A stretch of 24,439 bases of DNA from a virus: the IMG/VR virus record IMGVR_UViG_3300020462_000047, positions 1 through 24,439 of that record; one strand, written 5' to 3'. The translations under genes and the position numbers were made by a program. How positions within the stretch are numbered: position 1 is the first letter of the stretch; each line of letters starts with the position of its first letter. Shown here piece after piece: positions 79 through 14,400 of this stretch. The notes beneath the pieces are model-generated. The model was not told the origin of the DNA. It worked only from the letters and a program-made list of their open reading frames with translations, and did no database searches.

Positions 79-831
79 ATGTCTAGACTTTTAGTTAATA
101 ACCTGAGAGCTTACTCAGGTTCAGTTATTACAATCCCTTCGACGACCAAGTTGTCATTGGGAGGAAAGACCATTAGTGAAAACTCTGTTCTACCTTCTGC
201 TTCAGGGCAAACTAATAAAGCAGTAGGAAGCAATGGGGAGCAAATTTTATATGACACTTATGGTGCCAATGGAATGCAGGTATTCACCTCATCTGGTACA
301 TATACAAAATCTACAGGTGTCAATCAGATAATGGTAAGACTCGTAGCAGCTGGAGGCGGTGGTTCAGGTCACTGTGAAGCTGGTGGAGCAGGAGGTTTTT
401 CTGAGAAGATAATCAATGTTACAGGTATATCTTCAGTATCAGTTGCCATTGGTATTGGCGGTACTGGAACGTATTATTCTGGAAGGTCAGGTCAAGGTTC
501 TTCTTCATCGTTCGGTTCATTCATGTCAGCCACTGGAGGAGATGGTGCTAACCAATCCTATCAACACGCAGGAGGACTTGGCGGTGTTGGAGCTGGTGGA
601 GATGTTAATATGTACGGTGGCGGTGGATCAGCTCATGGTAGAATTAACGGGGGAGGAGGATATTCTTTCTTCGGAGGATGTGCTGCTAGAGGACATCCCC
701 GTGGTGGTGACTATTCTAGAAACCACCAAAGTCGTTCAGCACCTGGTTCAGGTGGAGCGAACGGATGGTTTAGATCGTATCTAGGACCTGAAGGAAAGCA
801 TGGTATGTGTGTAGTTTGGGAGTTTAAATAA
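79..831 (+). CDS. Glycine-rich putative tail-fibre adhesin, copy 1
   Basis: A 250-residue protein and the first of three tandem paralogues. Residues 1-35 form a short module (LLVNNLRAYSGSVITI then LSLGGK) shared by all three and possibly used for docking. Residues ~66-105 have the form of the glycine-rich domain seen in many phage fibres: a Phe/Thr-rich lead-in, VNQIMVRLVAAGGGGSG, then AGGAGGFSEKIINV. The rest is Gly-rich with TYYSG (131-135), YQHAGG (161-166), a polyglycine run at 180-183 and YSFFGG. The last ~50 residues (His, Arg, Ser rich) differ most between copies. Polyglycine segments separated by variable loops recall gp38-type distal adhesins, which set receptor specificity; that role is inferred. 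The stop overlaps the next start (TAATG). A minor structural protein is the alternative. Confidence 0.72.
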   Translation: MSRLLVNNLRAYSGSVITIPSTTKLSLGGKTISENSVLPSASGQTNKAVGSNGEQILYDTYGANGMQVFTSSGTYTKSTGVNQIMVRLVAAGGGGSGHCEAGGAGGFSEKIINVTGISSVSVAIGIGGTGTYYSGRSGQGSSSSFGSFMSATGGDGANQSYQHAGGLGGVGAGGDVNMYGGGGSAHGRINGGGGYSFFGGCAARGHPRGGDYSRNHQSRSAPGSGGANGWFRSYLGPEGKHGMCVVWEFK

Positions 832-1592
832 TGAGTATACTAAAGGTAAATGAACTGAGACCCCAATCGGGTTCAAACGTAACAATTCAATCAGGATACA
901 CACTAAGACTAGGAAGTAAAAACCTAGACTCTAGTAGTGTTATGCCATCTCCTAGTGGTCAGAATGGTAAGATACTTGTAAGTAACGGATCATCTCGTAA
1001 CTGGGAAGATCATGGTGCTGTGTCTATGTCTGTATGGACATCTAATGGTACATGGTCAAGACCTAGTGGAGTAAAAAGAATTCTTGTAAGAATCACTGGT
1101 GCTGGTGGAGCAGGCTCAGGTGTTGGAGAAGCAGGTGGAGCAGGTGGATATGCAGAAGAAATTATTGACGTAACAGGTGTATCATCTATATCTGTTACTA
1201 TAGGACAGCCTGGCTCATGGGGTGGTACATACTACTCTGGTGGTGCTGCTAATGGTGGTTCTACATCATTCGGTAACTATATGTCTGCTAGTGGTGGTAA
1301 CGGTGCTAACCGTAACTATCAGCACTGTGGAGGACTACCTGGCGTAGGGTCTGGTGGTCAGTTGAATATATATGGTGGAGGAGGATCAGGTCACGAATAT
1401 TGGTCTGGTTATCCTGGTGGTGGTTCCTTCTTTGGAGGAGCAGGAGCAACAGGTCATCCTCGTGGTGGTCATTATGCTTACAATCACCAATACAGAGCCG
1501 CTGTTGGAAGCGGTGGATCACCTGGTTATCATACATCTCGTAGAGGTGCTCGTGGTATGGCAGGTGTTGTATGTGTCTGGAACTTTAGATAA
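831..1592 (+). CDS. Glycine-rich putative tail-fibre adhesin, copy 2
   Basis: A 253-residue paralogue of the flanking genes. The N-terminal module (LKVNELRPQSGSNVTI, LRLGSK) aligns with copies 1 and 3. Residues ~66-125 match the glycine-rich fibre domain closely: VWTSNGTWSRPSGVKRILV, AGGAGGYAEEIIDV, then SVTIG. TYYSG is at 133-137, YQHCGG at 163-168, and the Gly-rich stretch ends in GGGSFFGGAG. The C-terminal segment (GHPRGGHYAYNHQYRAAVGS) shares GHPRGG with copy 1 but then diverges. It closes with VVCVWNFR, like VVWEFK in copy 1, suggesting a common final beta-strand. Start and stop are packed against the neighbours (one shared base upstream, two bases downstream). Receptor binding is inferred from the resemblance to polyglycine adhesins. 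Confidence 0.72.
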   Translation: MSILKVNELRPQSGSNVTIQSGYTLRLGSKNLDSSSVMPSPSGQNGKILVSNGSSRNWEDHGAVSMSVWTSNGTWSRPSGVKRILVRITGAGGAGSGVGEAGGAGGYAEEIIDVTGVSSISVTIGQPGSWGGTYYSGGAANGGSTSFGNYMSASGGNGANRNYQHCGGLPGVGSGGQLNIYGGGGSGHEYWSGYPGGGSFFGGAGATGHPRGGHYAYNHQYRAAVGSGGSPGYHTSRRGARGMAGVVCVWNFR

Positions 1593-1594
1593 CT

Positions 1595-2350
1595 ATGTCA
1601 AACGTTTATACAAATGAACTCGACGCAGCGTCGGGACAATCTATATTAATTGCTCAAGGATACAATCTATCTTTGGGTGGTACTATACTGAATAGCTCTT
1701 CTATACCTCCTGATCCTACAGAACAGCAAGGTAAGTTTCTAGTCAGTAATAATACAGACGCAGAATTTAAACACATAGGTCCTACAAGTATTTCAACGTT
1801 TTTTACCAGTGGTACTTGGAGTAGACCAGATGGTATCAACCGTATCATTGTACGTGTTACAGGCGGTGGTGGCGGTGGTTCAGGACACTCTGAATCAGGT
1901 GGTGCTGCTGGTTATGCTGAGGAGGTCATTGACGTTCGAGGTGTTTCTAGTGTATACTGTACAGTAGGAAATGGTTCTGGAAGTGGTACATACTACTCTG
2001 GAAATGGTGGCGGGGGAGGTACATCCTCATTCGGTAACTACGTGTCTGCTAGTGGTGGACTTGGTGCGAACCAAACATACCAACACTGTGGTGGACTAGG
2101 TGGACTCGGATCAGGTGGAAACCTCAACATATATGGTGGAGGTGGCATCGGACACATGAACTACATGGGTCACGGTGGAGGATCGTTTTTTGGATCAGGA
2201 ACTATGAGTGCTCATGGTAACTGGAACCAAGGAACTAGAAGTTCTCAGTTGAAAGCTGCTCGTGGTTCGGGTGGTACATCAGGATATCAGCGTTCTTATC
2301 AGGGTGCTAACGGTATGGCTGGTGCAGTTATTATTTTGGAATTTGTCTAA
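1595..2350 (+). CDS. Glycine-rich putative tail-fibre adhesin, copy 3
   Basis: A 251-residue third paralogue. It has the N-terminal module (VYTNELDAASGQSILI, LSLGGT), the glycine-rich domain (FFTSGTWSRPDGINRIIV, GGAAGYAEEVIDV), TYYSG at 132-136, YQHCGG at 162-167, NIYGGGG and GGGSFFGSG. Its last 50 residues are the most divergent: GHPRGG is missing and it ends AVIILEFV. It keeps the GSGG and GANGMAG landmarks, so the same fold is likely with a different exposed surface. The gene ends in a TCTAAATA box that may be the late promoter of the next gene. Three near-equal tandem copies suggest duplication and divergence, either as alternative receptor-binding tips or as subunits of a mixed tip. Confidence 0.72.
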   Translation: MSNVYTNELDAASGQSILIAQGYNLSLGGTILNSSSIPPDPTEQQGKFLVSNNTDAEFKHIGPTSISTFFTSGTWSRPDGINRIIVRVTGGGGGGSGHSESGGAAGYAEEVIDVRGVSSVYCTVGNGSGSGTYYSGNGGGGGTSSFGNYVSASGGLGANQTYQHCGGLGGLGSGGNLNIYGGGGIGHMNYMGHGGGSFFGSGTMSAHGNWNQGTRSSQLKAARGSGGTSGYQRSYQGANGMAGAVIILEFV

Positions 2351-2353
2351 ATA
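2346..2353 (+). promoter_or_regulatory. Putative T4-like late promoter box TCTAAATA
   Basis: TCTAAATA overlaps the stop codon of the third glycine-rich gene and lies 21 bases before the ATG at 2375. T4-type late promoters are a single -10 box, TATAAATA, and cyanophage versions tolerate changes in the first two positions. No other box of this kind was found before 11398, so it is the best candidate for driving the halogenase/oxygenase block through the short gene at 2375. Confidence 0.5.
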
Positions 2354-2374: not shown

Positions 2375-2890
2375 ATGGCTAAAAGTTGTTTAGTAGACTA
2401 TCGTGGATTCATCACCGATGTGGTAGAACCTGGTGAAGAATTCGAGGTCTATCAGGGGGATGATTCCCCAATCAAATGGGTAACATGCGACGATGATAAC
2501 GTCACTAACCTATGGGTACTTTGTAATGGAGAGTTTTTTGACAGTGCTAACAGACTGGAAAGAAACCAACAGATGAAAAGAAAAGTTGAGTATGGTTCCA
2601 TCGAAGATCAGATGGATATGATGTACTGGGATCAAATGAATGGTACGACTACATGGAAAGATCATGTAACTGCTGTTAAAGCCAACATCGTAAACCAGAC
2701 AACTGCTGACGCAGACGCTACGTTCTACGCAGGTAAAAAAGAATTTGAAATGGGTACTGAAGAAGCACCCGCATGGAATGGTCTTGCTGCCGAGAAGAGA
2801 CAGAAGGTCACTACATTCAAGAATGCGACAACATATGACGCAGGATGGGGACCAGACCCCGTAACAGGAAAACCCGTGTATACTGGATAA
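2375..2890 (+). CDS. Small phage protein with a YGSIEDQMDMMY-type motif, function unknown
   Basis: A 171-residue acidic protein. Residues ~1-60 look like a compact beta domain with conserved-looking Trp and Cys (IKWVTCDDD, LWVLCNGEFF). Residues ~70-105 hold RKVEYGSIEDQMDMMYWDQM followed by TTWKDHVTAVKANI. This resembles a C-terminal motif (YPSIGDQLDALY... then IKxxYP) that recurs in phage fibre-proximal and fibre-assembly proteins. The tail includes AGWGPDPVTGKPVYTG. The gene lies between the adhesins and the first halogenase, 24 bases after one stop and 14 bases before the next start. A fibre chaperone or attachment role is possible but weakly supported; the motif resemblance is the only clue. 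Confidence 0.6.
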   Translation: MAKSCLVDYRGFITDVVEPGEEFEVYQGDDSPIKWVTCDDDNVTNLWVLCNGEFFDSANRLERNQQMKRKVEYGSIEDQMDMMYWDQMNGTTTWKDHVTAVKANIVNQTTADADATFYAGKKEFEMGTEEAPAWNGLAAEKRQKVTTFKNATTYDAGWGPDPVTGKPVYTG

Positions 2891-2904: not shown

Positions 2905-4479
2905 ATGAAAATTGAATCAATTTGTATAGTCGGTGGCGGTACCGCAGGATGGATGACCGCTGCTACTCTGATTAAATCATTTCCAAAAAAGAAGATAACT
3001 CTGATTGAGTCTGAGAATATACCTACTATTGGTGTGGGTGAGTCTACGACTCAATTTTTTCGTGACTGGACACTGGAGATGAATCTGCCAGATAACTGGA
3101 TGGATGAGTGTGAGGCAACATATAAGTACAGTGTTTTATTCAAGAACTTTAGTGAGTATGGTGACTTCCATTATCCTTTCAATGATGGTCAGGCTCCAAA
3201 AAATAGTAGTTGTGATATCCTAGAATGGTTCTTCCATTATAGAGCAACCAATGGTAATCCTGATGTGTCTTTCGCTGAATGGATGACACCATACTGGAGA
3301 ATTATTAAAGAGAATAAAGTTGTAATAGATGACTTTGAATCATTCAAATCATATAAGAACGCAGGTTATCATCTAGACGCAGTTAAGTTTTCTAACTATC
3401 TGAAGAGAGAGTTCTGTATACCACGTGGTGTAGAACACATAACAGATGACATCAAAGATTGTATCAAAGATACTGACGGTAATATAGCAAGTATTGTAGG
3501 AGACAAAGACATATATCTTGCTGACATGTACGTTGACTGTACTGGATTTAAGTCTGCCATCCTAGGTGGTATGATGGGTGTAGAGTGGGATGACTTCCCC
3601 TTCCTTATCAATAACAAAGCATGGGCTGTAAAGACAGGCTATACTGATAAGTCTAAAGAGATGACAGTATATACACAGTGTACAGCGTTGGATAATGGTT
3701 GGGTATGGCATGCTCCACTTACAACTAGAATAGGTACAGGATATAATTTCTGTGACAAGTTTATATCAGAAGAAGATGCCTTAAAAGAATTTAAAGAATA
3801 CTTAGGAGACAGACCTCTGCTATCTGAACCACGTTTAATTGAGTGGAGAAATGGTGTAGCTAAGAAGATCTGGACTAAGAACGTTGTAGGTGTAGGTCTG
3901 TCAGCAGGTTTCATTGAACCATTAGAATCTAATGGACTACTGTCTGTACATAACTTTGCTGTGTTCTTAGCAGACGCTTTGTCTATGCATGATGGTAAGG
4001 TCAATACTCTTATCAGAGCACAGTTCAATAGAAGGTGTCGTAAGCATATGAGTCAGTTTGCTCACTTCGTTGGTAATCATTTCATGATGACAACAAAAGA
4101 TAACAGTGAGTATTGGAGACACATATCTGAGAACATCAACTATATGGATGATCAGGCAGAGGATGAGAGAGGTACACATGGTGGATACCCACTAGATGAT
4201 TTCCCATTGAAGATGGATGAGTTACCTCAGTTTAATTTCAGTAACCTAGCAGGAAATTCTTATGTCTGTGCGGGACATATGCATTCTCCTACTACACCAT
4301 GGACTATAGATTATATGGAAAAGAGAGGAAACATTGACATGACCTCATTCAGAGTGCTATCATCAGGATATCAACTAGATCCTAATATACATGCGATGAT
4401 AGATCAGTTCCCTACACCTGAGCAGTTCTATTATGATGACGTAGCAGGAGTAGACTTTCATTATACATTACACGGATGA
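2905..4479 (+). CDS. Flavin-dependent tryptophan-halogenase-family protein 1
   Basis: A 524-residue protein, the usual length for this family. The FAD-binding GxGxxG equivalent is GGGTAGWM at 10-17, followed by IGVGEST (42-48). The Lys thought to guide hypohalous acid or form the haloamine in PrnA-type enzymes (K79 in PrnA) corresponds to K74 in ATYKYSVLF. The partner acid and serine lie in IEPLESNGL (E341, S342). The halogenase signature WxWxIP appears as WVWHAP at 266-271, so one position departs from consensus. Family enzymes use FADH2, oxygen and halide to halogenate electron-rich aromatics; the cyanophage member VirX1 from phage Syn10 has been reported to iodinate small molecules. No flavin reductase is seen here, so a host or distant enzyme must supply FADH2. 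The substrate is unknown. The stop overlaps the next start (ATGA). Confidence 0.88.
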   Translation: MKIESICIVGGGTAGWMTAATLIKSFPKKKITLIESENIPTIGVGESTTQFFRDWTLEMNLPDNWMDECEATYKYSVLFKNFSEYGDFHYPFNDGQAPKNSSCDILEWFFHYRATNGNPDVSFAEWMTPYWRIIKENKVVIDDFESFKSYKNAGYHLDAVKFSNYLKREFCIPRGVEHITDDIKDCIKDTDGNIASIVGDKDIYLADMYVDCTGFKSAILGGMMGVEWDDFPFLINNKAWAVKTGYTDKSKEMTVYTQCTALDNGWVWHAPLTTRIGTGYNFCDKFISEEDALKEFKEYLGDRPLLSEPRLIEWRNGVAKKIWTKNVVGVGLSAGFIEPLESNGLLSVHNFAVFLADALSMHDGKVNTLIRAQFNRRCRKHMSQFAHFVGNHFMMTTKDNSEYWRHISENINYMDDQAEDERGTHGGYPLDDFPLKMDELPQFNFSNLAGNSYVCAGHMHSPTTPWTIDYMEKRGNIDMTSFRVLSSGYQLDPNIHAMIDQFPTPEQFYYDDVAGVDFHYTLHG

Positions 4480-6008
4480 AGATTTGTATTGTAGGCGGTG
4501 GTTCATCAGGATGGATGACTGCTGCTGCCTTTGCTAAAAGGTTTCCACATTATGACATACAAGTTATAGAAGATCCTGACACTAAGCCTCTTAGTGTAGG
4601 TGAGTCAACACTTGGACATTTCAATCGGTACTTAGACTGTATAGATGTCAAAGACACTGACTGGATGAAGGATTGTAATGCGACATATAAACTATCCATA
4701 CAATTTTCTAACTGGAAAAATGGCGATAGTACTGATGTATTCCAATACCCCTTTGGGGAGATGGATTACACTAACGGTGACTTCCTAACATGGTACTATC
4801 TACATCACACGTGGCCACAGTTATTTCCTGATCAGACATATTGTGAGTTCTATAATCCTATCAGTTACCTAGCAAGTACTAATAAGATAGTAGATGACAA
4901 TACTCATGTTCGTAATTTTAGAAGGCACTGGGATACATCATATCACTTTGATGCTACATTATTTGGTGGGTGGTTGAGAGATAATATATGTAAGACTGTA
5001 GTTAATACAAAAGCAAAAATTATAAATGCGTTATACGATGATCAGTGTAATATAAAATCCCTCGTTGACGCTGAAGGTATACATCACAACGCAGATTATT
5101 TCATAGATTGTACTGGTTTTAGTTCAGTCCTATTAGAGCAAAAGATGGGACAAGAGTTTATCCAGTTTCCTAATCTACCAAATGATTCTGCTGTAGTAGC
5201 ACACGTACCATATAAAGACAAGAACAAAGAGATGAAGAACCAGACAGATGGTTACGCTCTTGATAATGGATGGTGTTGGACTATACCTCTATGGAATAGT
5301 CTAGGAAAGGGATATGTATATTCTAGTGAGTTTGCTTTACCAGGTATAGCAGAGGCAGAGTTTAGAAAGCATACAGGATATGCTCATGAAGTGGAGCATA
5401 TAAAATTTAAACATGGTAGGAGGAGATTAGGGTGGTCTCAAAATGTTATAGGTATAGGTCTATCATATGGTTTCTTAGAACCATTAGAATCTACTGGTCT
5501 GTTTACTACACATGAGAACATACTCAGGTTAGTAGATACCTTTGAACGTAGAGACGGACATGTCACACAGATAGATGTAGATGGATATAATCATGCTGTA
5601 CACTATGAACTAGAAGCTATGAAAGAGTTTGTAGAGATGCATTACTACCTCTCTCCTAGAATAGACACACCATACTGGAGACACTATAGCAATGGATCAC
5701 CTCTCTCACATGAGCAGATGTTTGATAAGGTAGTGAGATCCCCTAGACTATATCAAGAGTTTATACACTGTTGGAATATATCTAACGCACCCAAAGATCT
5801 AGGTGGTTTACCATACATCGCAGCAGGTTTAGGATATCATCCATTGACAAAAACAGATTACAACTATAAGGTTAATAGGAGAGAGTGTGATGTGTCTTAC
5901 TTAAATGAACTTAAGAACAGACATTTCCATTATAGAAAATCCGTGCTAAAATACTTAGAGAAGCAACCTACTCACTATGAGTATTTGAAGAAATACATTT
6001 ATGTTTAG
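4476..6008 (+). CDS. Flavin-dependent tryptophan-halogenase-family protein 2
   Basis: A 510-residue paralogue of the preceding protein. It has VGGGSSGWMTA at 6-16 (dinucleotide binding), VGEST at 41-45, catalytic Lys K72 in ATYKLSIQF, a canonical WCWTIP at 266-271, and LEPLESTGL with E338 and S339. All halogenase hallmarks are intact, making it the more conventional of the pair. The two proteins match throughout their N-terminal two thirds but differ clearly in their C-terminal regions (residues ~390 on), where substrate or partner selectivity often lies. The gene overlaps its upstream neighbour by four bases and its downstream neighbour by eight, so translational coupling is likely. It may halogenate a second site or act with the first as a heteromeric pair; neither idea can be tested from sequence. 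Confidence 0.9.
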   Translation: MKICIVGGGSSGWMTAAAFAKRFPHYDIQVIEDPDTKPLSVGESTLGHFNRYLDCIDVKDTDWMKDCNATYKLSIQFSNWKNGDSTDVFQYPFGEMDYTNGDFLTWYYLHHTWPQLFPDQTYCEFYNPISYLASTNKIVDDNTHVRNFRRHWDTSYHFDATLFGGWLRDNICKTVVNTKAKIINALYDDQCNIKSLVDAEGIHHNADYFIDCTGFSSVLLEQKMGQEFIQFPNLPNDSAVVAHVPYKDKNKEMKNQTDGYALDNGWCWTIPLWNSLGKGYVYSSEFALPGIAEAEFRKHTGYAHEVEHIKFKHGRRRLGWSQNVIGIGLSYGFLEPLESTGLFTTHENILRLVDTFERRDGHVTQIDVDGYNHAVHYELEAMKEFVEMHYYLSPRIDTPYWRHYSNGSPLSHEQMFDKVVRSPRLYQEFIHCWNISNAPKDLGGLPYIAAGLGYHPLTKTDYNYKVNRRECDVSYLNELKNRHFHYRKSVLKYLEKQPTHYEYLKKYIYV

Positions 6009-6798
6009 AAAGAAGAAACCAAAAGCAAGGTTCTTTAGTTTACACCCTGCTGTACATACATTACATCCTATTACCAAGGCAGCAGATCTTGATAGAAAGT
6101 GGGTGAAAGATGAGAGAGGAGACTATAGAGAGAGATTGAATAAGTGTCCTATCTCTCAAGCATTACAAGGTGTACAAAACTTCCCTAATTCTATAGGTCG
6201 CTGTCCAGCTATAAATTCTCTTATGAGGACAGGTTATATTGTATACGCTCCCGCTGACTTTAAAGTTCACACTAATGGAGATGGACATACAATACTGTTC
6301 ACAACAACTCCTTTCAATCCTCCATCATCAGACTACGTTGTATTACATGAAACTGATGTAACTAAATGGTTGATGGATTCTAGTAAGGATACAACAATAG
6401 ATCAGGTAGTAAAAGTCAATACTACTTGGCGTGTACAGGCAGATGATGATGTCGTATTTCTCCAAACAAAAGTACCTTTCGTTAATGAAACTCGCTTCTC
6501 AGCAGTATCTGGTGTTCTCGATCCACGTACTGCTTATGAAGTCAATGTCCAACTCTTCTGGCACTTGATGGAAGGTGACACAACAGTTAGAGCAGGAACA
6601 CCTCTCTGCTGTTATGTTCCTATATCACGTAGTCTATTAGAAAATCTTGACATGTCTATTGACGTAGCTACACCTACAGATTATAAGCTTGAAGAAGAGT
6701 TTATATTTACTGCGTACAATGAGTTCCCTGAGAATGTCAATACAACTCAGAGACAAATTAAAACTAATAAAATTTTGAAGAAGTATTGGAATGGATGA
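6001..6798 (+). CDS. Unidentified protein of the halogenase/oxygenase block, possibly DUF6065-like
   Basis: A 265-residue protein starting with a basic stretch (MFRKKKPKARFF) and then LHPAVHTLHPITKAADLDR. Around 66-87, GRCPAINSLMRTGYIVYAPA is followed by Asp-Phe. At 157-210, KVPFVNETRFSAVSG, a ...VNVQLFWH segment and GTPLCCYVPISR form an all-beta pattern. The layout (tryptophan or arginine near the start, a CP...G...DF segment, a late G-P-hydrophobic-P-x-x-R element) recalls DUF6065-type proteins, a family of unknown function that I recognise only loosely. No catalytic motif or membrane segment is evident. Overlaps of eight bases with both neighbours tie it to the cassette; it might be an accessory or substrate-presenting subunit, which is inference. 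Confidence 0.65.
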   Translation: MFRKKKPKARFFSLHPAVHTLHPITKAADLDRKWVKDERGDYRERLNKCPISQALQGVQNFPNSIGRCPAINSLMRTGYIVYAPADFKVHTNGDGHTILFTTTPFNPPSSDYVVLHETDVTKWLMDSSKDTTIDQVVKVNTTWRVQADDDVVFLQTKVPFVNETRFSAVSGVLDPRTAYEVNVQLFWHLMEGDTTVRAGTPLCCYVPISRSLLENLDMSIDVATPTDYKLEEEFIFTAYNEFPENVNTTQRQIKTNKILKKYWNG

Positions 6799-7399
6799 AT
6801 CAATACCTTTATTTTCTGTACCCATAGTTAAGGGCAGAATAGTACCAAATGAATATGATGATGCTGCTACTGATACTATGTTAAGCCGCATCTTTCTTGA
6901 TAGAAAGCTAGGTGAGTTTGAAGGTGAGTCAGGTCTATCTACAGGTCCTGATGAGATGAAGATACATGAAAAAGAAGAACTTAAATGGTTGATGAAACCA
7001 TTAGACTTTGCTGTCAAAGAATATTGGGTATACACTCTAGGCTATAAGAAGATGGCAGATATCAAATGTAGAGATGGGTGGGCAAACAAACACTTCGCAG
7101 GAGATACTACAGTAGAACATAGTCATCAAGATGGATGGTGGGGTAGTTGTCAAATATCATGTGTATATTATTTTAGAAAACCAAAAGGATCTAGCAATAT
7201 AAAATTCTGTAACCCTAATGATTACATCCTACGTAATCAACCATACGCTATGATGAAAGGAATACATACTATAGCAACTGACTTTCCAGCTGAGCAATTC
7301 GAGTATGTTATCTTCCCATCATGGGTAAGACATAGAGTTGACCCTAGTACTGTAGGACCTCGTATAGCTATGTCATTTAATTTCCAAGGTTATGATTGA
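6791..7399 (+). CDS. Putative 2OG-Fe(II) oxygenase 1 (PF13759-like)
   Basis: A 202-residue single-domain double-stranded beta-helix protein. The metal site is in VEHSHQDGWWGS (H110, H112, D114), the distal His is H181 in FPSWVRHRV, and the 2OG-anchoring Arg is R191 in RIAMSFNFQG. The FPSW-H-V and R-x-[SA]-x-[SM]-FN pattern is typical of the 'putative 2OG-Fe(II) oxygenase' family common in marine T4-like phages. The H-x-H-x-D arrangement gives a conventional HxD pair if H112 and D114 are the ligands. It is first in a run of six such genes, overlaps the preceding gene by eight bases and the next by four (ATGA). Hydroxylation of a protein or small molecule is the expected chemistry; the substrate is unknown. 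Confidence 0.8.
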   Translation: MDESIPLFSVPIVKGRIVPNEYDDAATDTMLSRIFLDRKLGEFEGESGLSTGPDEMKIHEKEELKWLMKPLDFAVKEYWVYTLGYKKMADIKCRDGWANKHFAGDTTVEHSHQDGWWGSCQISCVYYFRKPKGSSNIKFCNPNDYILRNQPYAMMKGIHTIATDFPAEQFEYVIFPSWVRHRVDPSTVGPRIAMSFNFQGYD

Positions 7400-8205
7400 T
7401 GTATATACTTCCAATATCTAAAAGAGTATACCAAGAGACAAAACCTATCTTCAAACCAGTAAGTGAATGGAACTTTACCTATCACAGTAAGTACTGGGTA
7501 GTCAGAGATATCTTCAAAGAGGGTGGTCTAGATTTAATCAAAAAGATTGCTAGTTCATATCCTATTGTTGATACAAATAATCACGATGAAGATTTTGATC
7601 ACAACCCTTTTATGGTACATCATTTACCATACTGGATTACACAACCTCTATGTGAGGCAGTCAGGGAATTTGTACTTAAACAACACTTCGGTCAAGGACC
7701 TGAGTTAGAATTAATAGACGAACGTTTATCAGAGTGGGGTAATGTGTATTACAAAAATGAGTGTCGTCCTCTAGTAAACTCATATATACCACACGTAGAT
7801 TTCCCTAATGATGAGGGATGGATAGGAAACTTATGGTTATCAGAACATGAAAAAGGACAAACAACAACAGACATCTATGAGTATAAAGGAGAGGTGTCTG
7901 AAGGACGGTACGATTTCCAACTTGATCCACGTCACCAACGGTATAAAGAGTGGCACGATTGGGTTGGAGACGGAAAAAATCATACAGACGGCTTTCAAAA
8001 TCTCACAGGAAACCAAGCCTTTCACTGGGGATTCAGAAAAATAGCATCAGCTCCTGTAGAGTATGGAACTATGACTATCTACAATGCTAACTTACCCCAT
8101 TGCCCTTTCATAGATGATAGTGTACAATGGAGATGGTCTCACTGTTTCGGATTCAAATACAAATCCTTAGCAAGAGTATTTAAAGCACAAGAAGTTCCTG
8201 TTTAA
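7396..8205 (+). CDS. Putative 2OG-Fe(II) oxygenase 2 (HxD...H type)
   Basis: A 269-residue protein with a late beta-helix core. The HxD pair is H133 and D135 in SYIPHVDFPNDEGWIGNLW, the distal His is probably H235 in YNANLPHCPF, and R246 in VQWRWSHCFGF is placed to bind 2-oxoglutarate. The region between the two halves (150-215) is unusually long and rich in charged and aromatic residues (YDFQLDPRHQRYKEWHDWVG), possibly a lid or substrate-recognition insert. It could relate to DUF6445-type proteins that accompany tryptophan halogenases in bacteria, but this is a tentative family call. The gene begins ATGATG with a four-base overlap upstream and shares one base with the next gene (TAATG). Confidence 0.7.
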   Translation: MMYILPISKRVYQETKPIFKPVSEWNFTYHSKYWVVRDIFKEGGLDLIKKIASSYPIVDTNNHDEDFDHNPFMVHHLPYWITQPLCEAVREFVLKQHFGQGPELELIDERLSEWGNVYYKNECRPLVNSYIPHVDFPNDEGWIGNLWLSEHEKGQTTTDIYEYKGEVSEGRYDFQLDPRHQRYKEWHDWVGDGKNHTDGFQNLTGNQAFHWGFRKIASAPVEYGTMTIYNANLPHCPFIDDSVQWRWSHCFGFKYKSLARVFKAQEVPV

Positions 8206-8765
8206 TGTTTCTAGATGAAATATTTCCTACACCCATATGGGGTTTTGATTTAGATCTTGACGTGTCCAGTATTGAATATTGGATGTACCAAGAGATGAAG
8301 AAAGACGAGGGAAGAACTATATCTAATATTGGTGGGTGGCAATCAAATGACTATAGGGAGTTTGGTGACACACCACTCACAAACCTTGTACTATTCATTG
8401 TCAAAGAGTCACACAACATAGCAAAGGATATCGGTATACCAAAAGGTGATCGTTGGGTCGAGAACCTATGGTTAAATATCAATCCTAAGTATTCGTATAA
8501 TCAAATACATCAGCACCCAGAGTCTAGACTCTCTGGTGTTTTCTATGTCTCTGCTCCTGAGAACTCAGGTAATATATGTTTTACAAGATCCAATGGTTAT
8601 GCTCTAGGAACAGTCTGCCCAGAGATGACTAGATATAGTGTGGCAGAATACTGTTATCCTCCTAAGAAAAACAGACTGCTAATATTTCCTGCTTGGCTTG
8701 AGCACCATGTGAAGGCGAATCTATCTGAAGAAGATAGAGTATCAATATCATTTAACATACGATGA
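8205..8765 (+). CDS. Putative 2OG-Fe(II) oxygenase 3 (PF13759-like)
   Basis: A 186-residue protein opening with MFLDEIFPTPIW, the typical N-terminal beta-strand of this phage oxygenase family (a 'FPTPI' motif). WVENLWLNINP leads into YNQIHQHPESRLSGVFYV, with H102, H104 and E106 at the metal site. FPAWLEHHV supplies the distal His (H167), and R178 in RVSISFNIR is the 2OG Arg. This is the best match in the window to the family consensus HxHP...SGvyY...FPsWLxHxV...R-x-SisFN. Such genes recur in cyanophage structural regions without a proven role. Start and stop overlap the neighbours by one and four bases. Confidence 0.85.
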   Translation: MFLDEIFPTPIWGFDLDLDVSSIEYWMYQEMKKDEGRTISNIGGWQSNDYREFGDTPLTNLVLFIVKESHNIAKDIGIPKGDRWVENLWLNINPKYSYNQIHQHPESRLSGVFYVSAPENSGNICFTRSNGYALGTVCPEMTRYSVAEYCYPPKKNRLLIFPAWLEHHVKANLSEEDRVSISFNIR

Positions 8766-9382
8766 GAGAGTTTAAAAACTTTTTACCTAGCTCGTTAGCA
8801 AACGAGTTACATGATAAGATGACATCTAATGAGTTCCCTTGGTTCTGGTTAGATGATGTCACAGTATCACCTAAAGATAGATCAGAGGTTCCTGAGTTTT
8901 ACAGGAGTCAACCAGGTATGCATCATACTCCTTACAGAGATGGTACTATGAGTACATGGTATGGAGACTTCAGTTTCTTCTATCACTACATCATTGATAC
9001 TCTTGGTCTGCCTTATGATCAATGGTATCTGTCTCGACTTAGATGTGGATTAAACTTTCCTACATTTAGAGAAGAGCACTTCTTACACAACCAACCACAC
9101 GTTGACTTTCCAGAGTCATCAGGTGTAGACCACTTTACATGTTTATACTATGTCAATGAATCAGACGGTCCGACAGTCGTATTCGAGGAGAAAGAGGAAT
9201 CGGAGAAATATAATATCAAATATCAATGCAGTCCCGAAAAGAATAAGCTTTTCGTTTTTGATGGTAAGCACTATCATGCTAGCTCATGTCCTCAGCATCA
9301 TGACGCAAGGATCGCTATAACTATCAACATCGTCAACCGTCATCAACCAGCCAGTGTTAAGCCGTTTCTTCGCGTCGCGTGA
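8762..9382 (+). CDS. Putative 2OG-Fe(II) oxygenase 4 (HxD...H...R)
   Basis: A 206-residue protein. The facial triad is legible: H113 and D115 in NQPHVDFPESSGVDHF, then H172 in FDGKHYHASSCPQ, with R183 in ARIAITINIV as the likely 2OG-binding Arg. Residues 124-142 (HFTCLYYVNESDGPTVVF) form the strand pair usual between the ligands. The N-terminal 90 residues are mostly aromatic and charged and probably build the substrate pocket. The fold pattern is close to prolyl-hydroxylase-like phage enzymes. It overlaps the previous gene by four bases; the next gene starts inside its last 29 bases. Confidence 0.78.
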   Translation: MREFKNFLPSSLANELHDKMTSNEFPWFWLDDVTVSPKDRSEVPEFYRSQPGMHHTPYRDGTMSTWYGDFSFFYHYIIDTLGLPYDQWYLSRLRCGLNFPTFREEHFLHNQPHVDFPESSGVDHFTCLYYVNESDGPTVVFEEKEESEKYNIKYQCSPEKNKLFVFDGKHYHASSCPQHHDARIAITINIVNRHQPASVKPFLRVA

Positions 9383-10046
9383 TCTATACTGTGATGATGG
9401 TGTAGTATACATCCCACAGTTTATAGACAACCCACAAGAATACCTATCATGGAAAGACGTAGAGACATGTCTTACACGTGATGATATCTACTGGGAATTG
9501 ATAGACAAGAATGGACGTAAGAAAGAACTAGGAATGTACAAACCATACTGGTCTCCAGTTCCTTGTCAGGATAAGAACACAATATATGACCATGTAATAG
9601 GTGGAGAGAGTTTTGTTATTACAGGGTATAGTAAGATAAAAAGAAAGTTACAAGATCTGTGTATAGAGATAGAAAGATCTTTGGATGTCAATGTAGACAT
9701 ACATGTATATGGAGCAAGAGGTAAGTCACCTTCGTTTAAAACACATTGTGATCACTTCTCTAATTTTATAATACAGTGTGTTGGAGAGACACCGTGGAAA
9801 GTATATAAGAATAAACAGACCTCATTGTTGGCATGTAAAAATGACAAATCGCTAAACTATGATATAATGGAAACTGAATGGGAAGGGATTCTAAAGCCTG
9901 GTGATCTCCTCTATATACCTGATAGAGCATATCACTGTGCTATACCAAATAACACAAGGTTATCAATGAGTATTCCTTGTGCTCCTACTGTTCTAAACCC
10001 AGAGTTCTATGACAGACGTAACTACAAAATACAAACCGATAATTAA
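9354..10046 (+). CDS. JmjC/cupin-like putative Fe-2OG oxygenase 5
   Basis: A 230-residue protein starting at GTG; no in-frame ATG precedes the domain and the GTG leaves a natural N-terminus before VVYIPQFID. HCDHFSNFIIQCVGETPW gives H131 and D133 and matches the HxDxxxxFxxQxxGxxxW signature of JmjC/YcfD-like ribosomal oxygenases and Cupin_4/8 proteins. KPGDLLYIPDRAYHCAIP supplies the distal His H194 and is the standard second half of that motif; RLSMSIP follows. Family members mostly hydroxylate residues in folded proteins, which supports the idea that the cassette acts on a polypeptide. No Shine-Dalgarno-like sequence is visible, and the 29-base overlap suggests dependence on upstream translation. 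Confidence 0.78.
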   Translation: MLSRFFASRDLYCDDGVVYIPQFIDNPQEYLSWKDVETCLTRDDIYWELIDKNGRKKELGMYKPYWSPVPCQDKNTIYDHVIGGESFVITGYSKIKRKLQDLCIEIERSLDVNVDIHVYGARGKSPSFKTHCDHFSNFIIQCVGETPWKVYKNKQTSLLACKNDKSLNYDIMETEWEGILKPGDLLYIPDRAYHCAIPNNTRLSMSIPCAPTVLNPEFYDRRNYKIQTDN

Positions 10047-10626
10047 GGTCTGGAAGGAAGCAGTTCCTATTCCAGTCGTTGATCATCTGTATGCTGAGTT
10101 TCGTTTGATGAGAGACGCTCTGTTGGCTATGGGTAGTAATGAAGGGTACAATGATCCTACTACACCTGATTGTTTCTCTTGGTATTCACCTCTATGTTTT
10201 GAGGCAATGAGTATCAAATTAAAACCAGAAGTAGAAAGGATTCTCAAGGCAGAGGTTCAATCTACCTACTCCTATGGACGCATATATACTGAAGGAAGTG
10301 AACTTGAAAAGCACACTGACAGAAGGTCTTCAGAGATAGCAGTTAACCTGTCTATCGCTAGAGATATCAAATGGGATCTAAATTTTGAATGGATGGGACA
10401 AACCCTATCAGTTGACTTAGAACCAGGAGATGTGGTAATATACACAGGAACTATTCCGCATTGGAGAGAAAAGTATACAGGTAAAGAACATATCAATGCC
10501 TTTATGCAGTATGTTTATGCTGATGGTCAGTTCGCTGACATGAAGTATGACACACGTCCATACCTTGCCACCCCATTCACTCTCGCAAGGAGTGATGTTC
10601 AAGATGAAGTAAAAAATTATGTCTGA
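10009..10626 (+). CDS. Putative 2OG-Fe(II) oxygenase 6 (HxDR...H)
   Basis: A 205-residue protein with RIYTEGSELEKHTDRRSSEI giving H102 and D104 and the HTDR-x-x-SE signature seen in small phage and bacterial oxygenases. LEPGDVVIYTGTIPHWRE supplies the distal His H151, and GKEHINAFMQYVY holds the final strand, with Lys159 or the upstream Arg153 as possible 2OG anchors. The beta-helix core covers roughly residues 85-175. The ATG at 10009 lies 38 bases inside the preceding gene; no better in-frame start is evident, and this one leaves a complete N-terminal helix (VVDHLYAEFRLMRDALLAMG). It is the last oxygenase of the run. Confidence 0.75.
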   Translation: MTDVTTKYKPIIKVWKEAVPIPVVDHLYAEFRLMRDALLAMGSNEGYNDPTTPDCFSWYSPLCFEAMSIKLKPEVERILKAEVQSTYSYGRIYTEGSELEKHTDRRSSEIAVNLSIARDIKWDLNFEWMGQTLSVDLEPGDVVIYTGTIPHWREKYTGKEHINAFMQYVYADGQFADMKYDTRPYLATPFTLARSDVQDEVKNYV

Positions 10627-10906
10627 ACCGACTACTACTGAAACCCCCGAAACAAAAGAATGGACATTTGATCTAGTCTGGGAAGATTTTGTTGCTCAAC
10701 TTGTAGCAGCAAGAGAAGACGTAAGGGAGAAAGAAGAAGAGTTAGAGAAGAACTCTAGTCTTATGACTAGGATTGATCTAACAGATCTTAATGACGCTCG
10801 CACTAAAGTGAACCGTCTAGAAGGTGCTTGTGAAGCACTTGACATTATACGCACCGCAGTCTTAGGTGCTGAATCTAAAATCCAACCAACTGAAACTACA
10901 GCATGA
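10619..10906 (+). CDS. Small acidic helical protein, function unknown
   Basis: A 95-residue acidic protein. After a Thr/Glu-rich start (MSEPTTTETPETKEW), residues ~22-85 are predicted by eye to be two long helices with heptad-like spacing (AAREDVREKEEELEKNSSLM, then DARTKVNRLEGACEALDII). I do not recognise it. It overlaps both neighbours (eight bases upstream, four downstream) and shares a coiled-coil character with the next product, so the two may pair. It could be an adaptor or virion-associated protein of the cassette; nothing in the sequence decides this. Confidence 0.65.
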   Translation: MSEPTTTETPETKEWTFDLVWEDFVAQLVAAREDVREKEEELEKNSSLMTRIDLTDLNDARTKVNRLEGACEALDIIRTAVLGAESKIQPTETTA

Positions 10907-11103
10907 CTATCGAAGAAATGATTACAGACTTTACTGAGCAGCAGAGCAAGGTAAAAGCAGAAGTGGCAGAAATAAAAGATGCCCTTAAAACAAGAGAAGA
11001 CCAACTATTGAGACTCCAAGGAGCAATAGAAGGTCTAAGATTAGCAACTAAGGATCAAGAGGAAGCTCCTGTTGAACCAGTTGTTGAACCGAAAGTTAAA
11101 TAA
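10903..11103 (+). CDS. Small coiled-coil protein, function unknown
   Basis: A 66-residue protein. Residues 1-50 form one long amphipathic helix (MTIEEMITDFTEQQ, VKAEVAEIKDALKTREDQLL), followed by an acidic Pro/Val tail (EEAPVEPVVEPKVK). The pattern is that of a short dimeric coiled coil. It is the last gene of the block, beginning in ATGA overlap with its neighbour. Its TAA directly abuts the stop codon of the opposite-strand gene with no intervening base. Similar tiny helical proteins are frequent in T4-like phages, mostly uncharacterised. Confidence 0.65.
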   Translation: MTIEEMITDFTEQQSKVKAEVAEIKDALKTREDQLLRLQGAIEGLRLATKDQEEAPVEPVVEPKVK

Positions 11104-11391
11104 TTAATCTACAAACTTGAGGAACTTGCTTGATATCAAGTCATGCTTCTCATCAAACTCTAAACGTCTACGGGCATGGGTCTTATCTCCATCAACAATG
11201 AGATAATATCTTTTACCGTAGATGTTTTTTGTCATGCCTATAGCAACGATAGGTCTATCGTCATACTTATCACCAACATCATAGGGGATAGTCTCTGCGG
11301 TACCATTGTAAGGAGTAAGAGTTTTACTCCAAAGGTGTTCTCTGAGTCTATATTCACCTGTTGGTGCTTCTCTGTCTCTAAGTCCAGCCAT
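11104..11391 (-). CDS. Opposite-strand small protein, function unknown
   Basis: The only convincing minus-strand gene in the window, 95 residues. The composition looks like a real folded protein: YDVGDKYDDRPIVAIGMTKN, then YGKRYYLIVDGD followed by THARRRLEFDEKHD. The overlapping plus-strand frame at 11176-11418 gives a Cys/Ser/Ile-rich translation with no plausible domain. The gene converges on the cassette with no gap and diverges from the large protease gene with 43 bases between starts. No Shine-Dalgarno or minus-strand promoter could be assigned. If real, it would be transcribed against the late genes, possibly early in infection. Confidence 0.55.
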   Translation of the reverse strand: MAGLRDREAPTGEYRLREHLWSKTLTPYNGTAETIPYDVGDKYDDRPIVAIGMTKNIYGKRYYLIVDGDKTHARRRLEFDEKHDLISSKFLKFVD

Positions 11392-11434: not shown

Positions 11435-14400
11435 ATGGCAACCCTTTTAGTAAAGGTAGCAGATTCTATGACTCTTGATGGTGCTCAAGCACTAATACAG
11501 GGTCAGCATAGTTATTTAGAGTTTGTTCGATCTTTCCCTTCATTTAAAACTATCCAGTTTACAGCACCTTCAGAGGATCAATCCTCTATTGATGAGATAA
11601 GATCTTTAGCTTATGTTCTAGGTGCTACTTACGACAAACCATTCGAGATAGACCCTGTGGTAGGAGGTCTTGTAGAGACTGCTGAGTTCAGCACTGATAT
11701 AATAGAGAGTAATACAAACGAAGAAGAAGCAACAGGTACAAGGAATACAAGAATAATAACTTCAAGTGGTGGTGGAACAATATATGTTAAGGTAGCAAAC
11801 TATGGTGGTAATTTAAGATTTGAGTTAGGATCATCTCAAGGTGGTGTGTACAGTCGTATCGCAACCTATAGTGGTTTCGTACAGGGTGGTACATATACCT
11901 TCGACCAGAGTGATACATCTAACACAGGTCATAGAATAGCATTTTCTTTGACACCTGATGGTACACATGGTGGTGGTGTTCAATACACATACAAGGTAAC
12001 AACCGCAGGTACACCTGGTTCATCAGGTGCTTACACCCGTATTGAAGTAGATAGTGTTACAGCATCTGTACTGTACTGGTACAACGTGTCTAACTCTAAC
12101 TACGGTGCTTATGATGATAGTCCTTTACGTTATGGTGCCATTTGTATACATGACTTCTGGCATCTAGATCGTATATCAAAACAAAGTAGGAGTTTTTTAA
12201 ATGGAGTCTATAACACTACGGAAGAAGCTGACGGTGTTGACATATATGTACTTGATACTGGAATTAGAGGAGCTTCGAGACCGACTGGAACGAACGTAGG
12301 ATTACATCCAGAACTATTCGATACAAGTAATAACGCTGACCTTAATGGTTTATCAGAGCAGCAGTCATACCGTGTGTATGAAGTAGCAGGTTATAGTTCA
12401 GGATATACTGTCAATGGTGTGGCAAATAGTAATGAAGATGATAACGGACACGGTACATACTGTGCTGTATTGTCAGGTGGTATCAAGTGTGGTGTCACAA
12501 ACCAATCCAAGTTCTATGCTTTGAAGTGCTTTAGTTCTTTTGGTAGTGGATCTCTGTCAGGTATCATGAATGCTTACCAAGCAGTCATCAACCATAATGA
12601 CAGTGGACACGTCAACTACAAGGGTAACACTAGACCAGCAGTGATCAACTCATCCTTCGGTGCTACACAACCTAGTGGCTCTGTACCATACGTTGAGATA
12701 AACGAGGCAGGTACTGACTCAGGATTTGATATAGAACTCTATGACGAGACAGAGAAAGACGTAGTAGATGCTAATATTGTACTTGTTAGATCAGCAGGTA
12801 ACGGATTTAAAGATGCTAGTGATAGTTTCTTAGGACCTCTACAAGGTAGATTCCAAGCAGGAACTAGATCAGCAGGTTATCCAGACGGAGATGTCAACAC
12901 AGTTGATACAAATATCGCGTCTATCTCTGTAGGTGCTACAGACTATAATGACAGATGGGCAGACTTCTCTAACTATGGTTCAGGTGTAACAGTTACAGCA
13001 CCAGGTCAACACATAACAGTACCAAACTATAACTGGACTACTAATACTCCTTATACATCAGTATCAAACTACACTAACATAGGTGGTACATCGTTCTCAG
13101 GTCCTATCACAGCAGGTGTAGTTGCTCAGTTCATAGCAGCTAACAGTTATACACATAGTACAGGTACACTACCAGTATTATGTAAGAACTGGATTAGAGG
13201 GACAGGAGATGCTGGTAACTTCGCAGCTGTCAGTACAACTGCATATCCTACTAACACAGCTCATGAATATAAGTTACCCACTGACCCATTCGCAGTCAGC
13301 AGTGGTAGCAATGTCATCAAGATATACTATAACGCAATAGATTCTAGTGCCTTCCTGAACAAGATTGGTAAGAAGTTACAGTTCAGAGTCGCAGCTAGCT
13401 CACTATCAGTGGGTGGTATTAACATTAAAGAAGAGTCTGGTACATGGTATGGCATCACAGGACAGGATGCTGCTAATAACTATGTTGAAATCACTGTAGT
13501 TAACAGTGGTACAGGTAATGAAGTAGGTGGTGGAGATAATAACTATGGGTGTATTATATCTGATACACATGAAGGAACTGACGGACCTTCATTCGGTAAC
13601 GTCACATTATATGCTGAGTTAGACTCAGAGGAAGCAGGACATACAGGTCGTACTATCCAACAGATACCAGTAGATACAGGTGTTGACTTTGATTACAGTC
13701 AAACAACATCCTTAATTAGTAAGGTCAGAGGACTGTTCACTAGATACATCTCTAAGACTATCACATGGTTCTACAATGGATCTATTAGTCAGACAGGTGG
13801 TATTGGAACTACTAACGGAAGAGTCTACTGGGATACAGAAGGAGTCACAGCTGCTTCATACTATCTTCAGTGTGAGTATCATACTAACATGTATGGAACT
13901 CTTCAGTTATCTGGTTCAGGTGGTACTGCCAAGAGATATTGGACAGTTACAGCACCTGGCAATGGTGCTTATAGATTTACAGAACAGGGCGTAACTCCTG
14001 TAGTCAACACATATAACATAGCCGTCACTGCTAGTGGCAGTTCAAACTATACACTATCGGGAACAGATAGAAGTGGTAGTGTTAGTGGTAGTGACCCAAC
14101 AGTTACAGTACAGGTTGGAGATACAATAAGATTCAATATGAATGCGGGTGGACACCCAATGTTTATCAAGACTGTTGGTGGAACTGGTACAGGAAATCAA
14201 GTCACAGAAGGAACTACATCAGGTCAAGGTACACAGAGTGGTGGCACTATAGAGTGGGTCACAGATGGAGTAACACCTGGTACTTACTACTACAACTGCC
14301 AGTATCACGGTGGTATGGAAGGTCAGATAGTTGTACAGGCAAATAATACAGCAGGTCAAAGTGGTGATGATATTACTATCACAGGAACTGTAGGTGATAT

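Follow-up and report, generated by a model that had tools for sequence, protein, structure and literature searches.

A conserved block of halogenase and oxygenase genes linked to a glycine-rich tail adhesin in T4-like marine phages

A block of nine overlapping genes between tail adhesins and neck genes

The DNA that we analyzed (the window) is a fragment of 24,439 nucleotides (24.4 kb) from a T4-like marine phage, IMG/VR virus record IMGVR_UViG_3300020462_000047. At positions 2905-10626 it contains a block of nine plus-strand genes: two genes for flavin-dependent halogenases (halogenases A and B, genes 1-2), a gene whose product has a weakly dUTPase-like predicted fold (gene 3), and six genes for proteins that appear, with differing degrees of confidence, to be iron- and 2-oxoglutarate-dependent (Fe/2OG) oxygenases (genes 4-9; Table 1). 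Every gene in the block overlaps its neighbor, by 4, 8, 8, 4, 1, 4, 29 and 38 bp in succession. An earlier reading of the window, made from the sequence only, had given these coordinates, nine genes and overlaps of 1-38 bases, and all of this was correct on recheck. It also placed the block between tail adhesins and neck genes, which is right except that four further genes intervene before the neck: a pair of small genes, a lone minus-strand gene and the gene for a protein of 1,953 amino acids. Our main finding is that the block is a conserved enzyme cassette whose constant companion is the family of glycine-rich adhesins encoded just upstream of it.

Table 1. Positions of the cassette genes and associated features in the window.
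Feature	Position	Strand	Remarks
Glycine-rich tail adhesin paralogue 1, candidate substrate	79..831	+	phrog_863 tail fiber assembly, E 1e-46
Glycine-rich tail adhesin paralogue 2, candidate substrate	831..1592	+	Pfam Gly_rich_2, E 4e-5, just under cut-off; tblastn, 20 phage records, each with the halogenase
Glycine-rich tail adhesin paralogue 3, candidate substrate	1595..2350	+	Family of paralogues 1 and 2
CTAAATA, T4-late-promoter-like	2347..2353	+	~27 nt 5' of phrog_1787 gene; consensus match
phrog_1787 protein ('tac')	2375..2890	+	PHROG match; conserved place between adhesin and halogenase
Halogenase A, flavin-dependent	2905..4479	+	PF04820 E 8e-89; VirX1 6QGM E 1.8e-85
Halogenase B, flavin-dependent, VirX1-like	4476..6008	+	PF04820 E 1e-95; VirX1 6QGM E 6.5e-125
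Gene 3, phrog_7084	6001..6798	+	Weakly dUTPase-like predicted fold
Gene 4, PF13759 oxygenase	6791..7399	+	H110xH112...H181, R191
Gene 5, phrog_1644 / DUF6445-related Fe/2OG-fold protein	7396..8205	+	H133xD135...H235, R246
Gene 6, PF13759 oxygenase	8205..8765	+	H102xH104...H167, R178; PDB 3bvc/2rg4
Gene 7, Fe/2OG-type oxygenase	8762..9382	+	H113xD115...H172, R183; PHROG label 'DNA endonuclease V'
Gene 8, JmjC_2 oxygenase	9354..10046	+	H131xD133...H194; PF08007 E 4e-19
Gene 9, probable Fe/2OG oxygenase	10009..10626	+	H102xD104...H151; PHROG label 'ferrochelatase'
Small protein sm1	10619..10906	+	Kept downstream of block
Small protein sm2 (phrog_580)	10903..11103	+	PHROG match; kept downstream of block
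Seventh oxygenase, PF13759	21725..22294	+	HxH...H; outside block, 3' of terminase small-subunit gene

The cassette is linked to one adhesin family

A lack of conserved co-occurrence in related phages would have spoken against the sequence-only reading. We found the opposite, and strongly so: the block recurs, far beyond chance, both in cultured phages and in IMG/VR. In the cultured cyanophage S-RIM44 the gene order is identical (three adhesins, then phrog_1787, the halogenase pair, gene 3, genes 4-9, the small genes and the neck), and variants of this order are found in Sf-CH3, Syn9, P-TIM40, P-RSM6, S-SZBM1 and S-CREM1, the last of which combines a single halogenase with gene 3 and eight oxygenases. 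The S-RIM44 (gp157-gp169) and S-CREM1 (ORF67-80) genes share the adhesin-halogenase-gene 3-oxygenase order of the window, and were deposited separately, with names that include ferrochelatase, minor coat protein and endonuclease V; identity between their halogenases and those of the window is moderate (~43-47%). Approximately 80 halogenase loci in IMG/VR show similar neighborhoods across divergent phages.

To measure the linkage we used the adhesin as a tblastn query against 50,697 phage records. It was present in 20 records, representing 11 cyanophages, and all 20 also contain a halogenase, within about 3 kb. Among the same records the halogenase occurs in 64 and the neck protein gp13 in 960. 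Neither in these records nor in the IMG/VR loci did we find a member of this adhesin family without a halogenase. We also compiled 78 IMG/VR contigs that were found via the adhesin or phrog_1787, extend at least 6 kb downstream, and encode distinct phrog_1787 proteins; a halogenase is present in 78/78 of them and at least three oxygenases in 77/78, within 9 kb. The adhesin family, for its part, is invariant at loci that carry the block. In P-TIM40, P-RSM6 and S-SZBM1, ~70-110 kb separate gp13 from the block, which makes the adhesin, and not the neck region, the constant neighbor. The adhesins remain adjacent to the enzymes even at three loci where they lie on the other strand (L074, L079 and L087). 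The cassette is real, conserved, and near-obligately linked to the adhesin. The adhesins are rich in histidine and tyrosine as well as glycine, and a profile search of the PDB with the adhesin gave no match. The phrog_1787 protein is possibly a tail assembly chaperone.

Some loci have other arrangements. In another phage group a phrog_1458 gene, coding for 409-563 amino acids, is located near the halogenase (L034:8171-9403 and L059:15096-16784), and in several loci a gene of this family sits between phrog_1787 and the halogenase. Pelagibacter phage HTVC008M (L332, 56808-59681) has a run of five oxygenase-type genes that directly precedes its neck genes and lies on the opposite strand, with a halogenase ~4 kb beyond the run.

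Adhesin type and enzyme set are exchanged together

Phages Sf-CH3 and Sf-CH11 are closely similar in their neck genes (gp13 is 88% and gp15 85% identical) but differ in the contents of the slot between fiber and neck genes. In Sf-CH3 the slot holds an adhesin of the window's type, a halogenase, gene 3 and genes 4-9, whereas in Sf-CH11 two other glycine-rich adhesin-like proteins flank a prolyl-hydroxylase-like gene, oxygenases and a halogenase that is only 39% identical to that of Sf-CH3. Gly_rich_2 proteins are similarly found on either side of the enzymes in L061 and related loci. The neck genes of the window and of P-HM1 are 57-67% identical (gp13, 67%), and in P-HM1 the slot is occupied by a single oxygenase and two tail-tip-like proteins that differ from the window's adhesins. 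Between Sf-CH3 and Sf-CH11, with their near-identical neck genes, the type of adhesin has been swapped together with the enzyme set.

Two VirX1-like halogenases

Both halogenase genes identified in the sequence-only reading are members of PF04820, scoring 299 and 322 bits against a curated cut-off of 21. Near their N-termini they have the GxGxxG nucleotide-binding motif (as GGGTAG and GGGSSG), and the catalytic residues Lys72 and Glu338, the latter near the sequence PLES, are invariant in 12 phage halogenases; we take the lysine to correspond to position K79 of PrnA. The motif WxWxIP separates flavin halogenases from monooxygenases. Halogenase B retains it as WCWTIP, and halogenase A has WVWHAP at the expected place, with the Ile replaced. 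The nearest solved structure for both proteins is VirX1 of cyanophage Syn10 (PDB 6QGM), and Syn10 likewise has the adhesin, the phrog_1787 gene, paired halogenases and gene 3. On this sequence evidence the two proteins are VirX1-like flavin halogenases, with predicted halogenating activity. VirX1 has been studied singly and on small molecules. Its active site is open and its substrate range broad, and many small aromatics are iodinated by it in vitro (reviewed in PMC8407142).

A contig from the Prochlorococcus single-cell genome AG-418-C09 (L243:1-3595) contains halogenase A, halogenase B (77% identical), gene 3 and gene 4. It is probably phage DNA from an infected cell, and hints at Prochlorococcus as the host of the window's phage.

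Six oxygenase-type genes with conserved metal-ligand motifs

The sequence-only reading saw HxD/E...H motifs in all six oxygenase genes. We can read them in genes 5, 7, 8 and 9, but genes 4 and 6 lack this canonical triad, though they are PF13759 members, and have HxH...H instead. That version is invariant in their relatives (26/26 for gene 4 and 82/82 for gene 6), and the solved PF13759 relative 3bvc aligns with the same two histidines. For genes 5, 7, 8 and 9, HxD...H is present in all, or all but one, of each gene's relatives (50/50 for gene 7, and 33/33 for gene 9). Loss of metal ligands, which would have spoken against the sequence-only reading, is thus not what the alignments reveal: the ligand motifs are conserved in every oxygenase family. 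The dense block of six oxygenase-type genes also stands, but it is less unusual than was claimed, because ten 2OG oxygenases have already been reported in cyanophage S-CREM1 (PMC9964418).

Assignments of the individual genes differ in firmness. Gene 8 matches PF08007 at 69 bits (cut-off 22) and NO66 by profile (E = 1.4e-13), its nearest profile relatives being ribosomal-protein His/Arg hydroxylases of the NO66/MINA53/ycfD type. It shares the JmjC_2 domain and HxD...H site with NO66, MINA53 and ycfD/RoxA, but at 230 amino acids it is shorter than the solved NO66, MINA53 and ycfD chains (~370-490) and does not have the dimerization and C-terminal domains of those larger enzymes. Gene 5 matched no Pfam family, but its AlphaFold2 model (predicted local distance difference test, pLDDT, 94.4) matches solved 2OG-Fe(II) oxygenases in Foldseek, including HygX, ColD, OGFOD1 and prolyl hydroxylases, with E-values down to 1.7e-5, and its PHROG also matches DUF6445 proteins. 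Gene 7 groups with the PF13759 set through profile searches. For gene 9 we found no Pfam or PDB sequence relative and only weak hhalign matches, and hhalign comparisons of genes 9 and 5 to gene 7 were uninformative; it is the HxD...H motif that makes gene 9 a probable Fe/2OG oxygenase.

PHROG families 274, 1644 and 2954 are labeled 'DNA endonuclease V', 'minor coat protein' and 'ferrochelatase', and these labels propagate into public cyanophage annotations of oxygenase-like proteins. For genes 5, 7 and 9 the labels are unfit, given the fold of gene 5, the profile grouping of gene 7, and the presence of HxD...H in all three. The seventh oxygenase gene in the window may be unrelated to the block.

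Gene 3

Structural modeling indicates that gene 3 is not an oxygenase. Its AlphaFold2 model (pLDDT 92) has weak Foldseek similarity to the dUTPase fold (E ~1e-3, query-normalized template modeling score <0.36). By eye, a stretch resembles dUTPase motif III/IV, and the phosphate-binding motif II was not seen in the same inspection. The S-CREM1 homolog is annotated as a triphosphate nucleotidohydrolase. At six loci (L066, L069, L072, L073, L077 and L089) there are up to four tandem gene 3-like copies beside halogenases and oxygenases.

Late-promoter-like motifs and virion proteomics

We counted matches to the late-promoter consensus [AC]TAAATA at 10-60 nt upstream of genes; these are consensus matches, not mapped promoters. 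The motif precedes phrog_1787 in 66 of 100 loci and gp13 in 18 of 20. It precedes the halogenases in 31 of 214 cases, and genes 4, 5, 6, 8 and 9 together in none of 421. From these promoter-like motifs we infer late expression, with the block probably being read within a late operon. In the virion proteome of S-SZBM1 (PMC9146016, Table 1), fiber proteins 51-54, encoded just upstream, are listed, and the adhesin, halogenase and oxygenases are not. The absence of the enzymes fits with their not being packaged. That of the adhesins, which have 8-9 usable tryptic peptides each, may be due to low copy number.

Bacterial relatives lie beside outer-membrane receptors

The parallel that the sequence-only reading drew with bacterial halogenase paralogs holds on checking: of 58 loci containing bacterial PF04820 relatives, 36 have a TonB-dependent receptor gene no more than 1.5 kb away, and DUF6445 and Cupin_8 enzymes accompany these relatives. 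Like the phage block, the bacterial tryptophan-halogenase paralog clusters combine PF04820 and DUF6445/Cupin_8 enzymes beside a gene for a surface protein, which is an outer-membrane receptor in the bacteria and an adhesin in the phages. Enzymes of this kind therefore adjoin a surface-protein gene in two settings. A PF13759-rich run was not seen in the bacterial loci that we inspected.

Genes between the block and the neck

We considered sm1 and sm2 as possible precursors of a peptide natural product and rejected them, as by eye they look like coiled-coil proteins and not precursor peptides. They are followed by the lone minus-strand gene (11104-11391; 95 amino acids, phrog_26228), and the closest relatives of the window have a minus-strand gene of similar size at the matching position. 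The 1,953-residue protein (11435-17296) is a homolog of PHM1_104 of P-HM1 (51% over 936 amino acids). Its residues 241-572 match a protease PHROG and look subtilisin-like by eye, and residues 887-968 are weakly plastocyanin-like.

A possible role in modifying the tail adhesin

We lean slightly towards the interpretation that the cassette is expressed late and that its target, hydroxylated and halogenated in the course of assembly, is the tail adhesin or a partner tail protein. On this view, transcription of the halogenase and Fe/2OG oxygenase genes would start at promoters close to the adhesin and phrog_1787 genes and would take place late, together with that of the tail genes. The enzymes would work within the infected cell, with the glycine-rich tail-tip adhesin, or a protein that is its immediate partner, as their substrate. 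Side chains in the receptor-binding loops would be hydroxylated or halogenated before or during tail assembly, which could alter receptor binding, stability or protease resistance and in that way bring a selective advantage. The sequence-only reading had proposed oxidative tailoring of a polypeptide at the virion or host surface. The conserved linkage to tail-tip adhesins and the JmjC resemblance strengthen that proposal, while the substrate and an ordered pathway stay inferential. We count the likeness of gene 8 to protein-residue hydroxylases, and the open site of VirX1, towards a polypeptide substrate by analogy.

Several points weigh against adhesin modification. The characterized halogenases VirX1, PrnA and RebH act on small molecules. 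The substrate, the modification and the enzyme activities are all predictions from gene content. Linkage can reflect exchange as a unit, with no enzyme-substrate relationship, and our 78 IMG/VR contigs were seeded from halogenase-linked adhesins and still include relatives, so they are not a phylogeny-independent sample. Halogenases also occur remote from adhesins, beside SbcC in S-H35 and beside psbA in S-MbCM6. Lastly, NO66 favors an NHxH motif and many of the adhesins contain NHQxH, but a comparison of gene 8 presence with the adhesin motif gave 56/72 loci against 7/20; there are exceptions in both directions and the pattern is confounded by clade, so we did not use this covariation as evidence.

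An alternative that we consider unlikely is auxiliary metabolism, with a small molecule made or altered by the enzymes, for example a metabolite bearing halogen and hydroxyl groups that protects the host cell or reprograms it. The activity of VirX1 on many small aromatics in vitro (PMC8407142) and the solitary position of the S-MbCM6 halogenases among metabolic genes are in keeping with it, and cyanophage authors have proposed tryptophan chlorination and antibiotic protection (PMC9964418). However, the block has no scaffold-making gene (for a nonribosomal peptide synthetase, polyketide synthase or precursor), and a small-molecule product leaves both the 20/20 linkage to one adhesin type and the joint replacement unexplained. 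It also seems rather improbable that the target is some other polypeptide, whether elsewhere in the virion or its fibers or on the host surface (where modification might block superinfection). Gene 8 resembles JmjC protein hydroxylases, the bacterial relatives adjoin TonB receptors, and fiber genes are neighbors too, but the tightest constant neighbor, in both orientations, is the glycine-rich adhesin with phrog_1787.

We give little credence to hitchhiking, in which frequent exchange at adhesin loci would carry the enzymes along without their acting on the adhesin. The variability of the fiber-neck slot between close relatives is what an exchange hot spot would produce, but a neutral passenger would be lost somewhere, whereas the halogenase is kept in 78/78 contigs and 20/20 records and the active-site residues are invariant. 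Roles for the oxygenases in DNA repair or in 2-oxoglutarate balance in nitrogen metabolism, as proposed in PMC3037559 and discussed in PMC9146016, are very unlikely, since they account for neither the halogenases, the JmjC member, the late-gene setting nor the adhesin linkage, and the S-SZBM1 authors place their own copies elsewhere than between uvsY and uvsW (PMC9146016).

Implications for host recognition

The component families of the cassette were already known, and multi-copy 2OG oxygenases and halogenases in cyanophages have been treated as auxiliary metabolic genes (PMC3037559, PMC9964418, PMC9146016, PMC10452541); what is new is the linkage to the adhesin. A partial literature search found no paper that proposes adhesin tailoring or connects VirX1 to an adhesin. 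The natural substrate of VirX1 and the purpose of the many cyanophage 2OG oxygenases are standing questions, to which the adhesin link offers a specific and cheaply testable answer. As a more tentative generalization, marine T4-like phages may carry exchangeable cassettes in which each tail-tip adhesin comes with a dedicated group of halogenases and non-heme iron oxygenases, through which the receptor-binding protein would acquire halogenated and hydroxylated side chains. If this is true, VirX1-type halogenases would have a natural role, the polypeptide-halogenating enzyme set would be useful for biocatalysis, and a role would be suggested for the bacterial halogenase paralogs beside TonB receptors. 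Host recognition in these phages would then depend on enzymatic decoration of the adhesin, a layer of host-range chemistry that is not encoded in the adhesin sequence and that sequence-based prediction of host range would miss.

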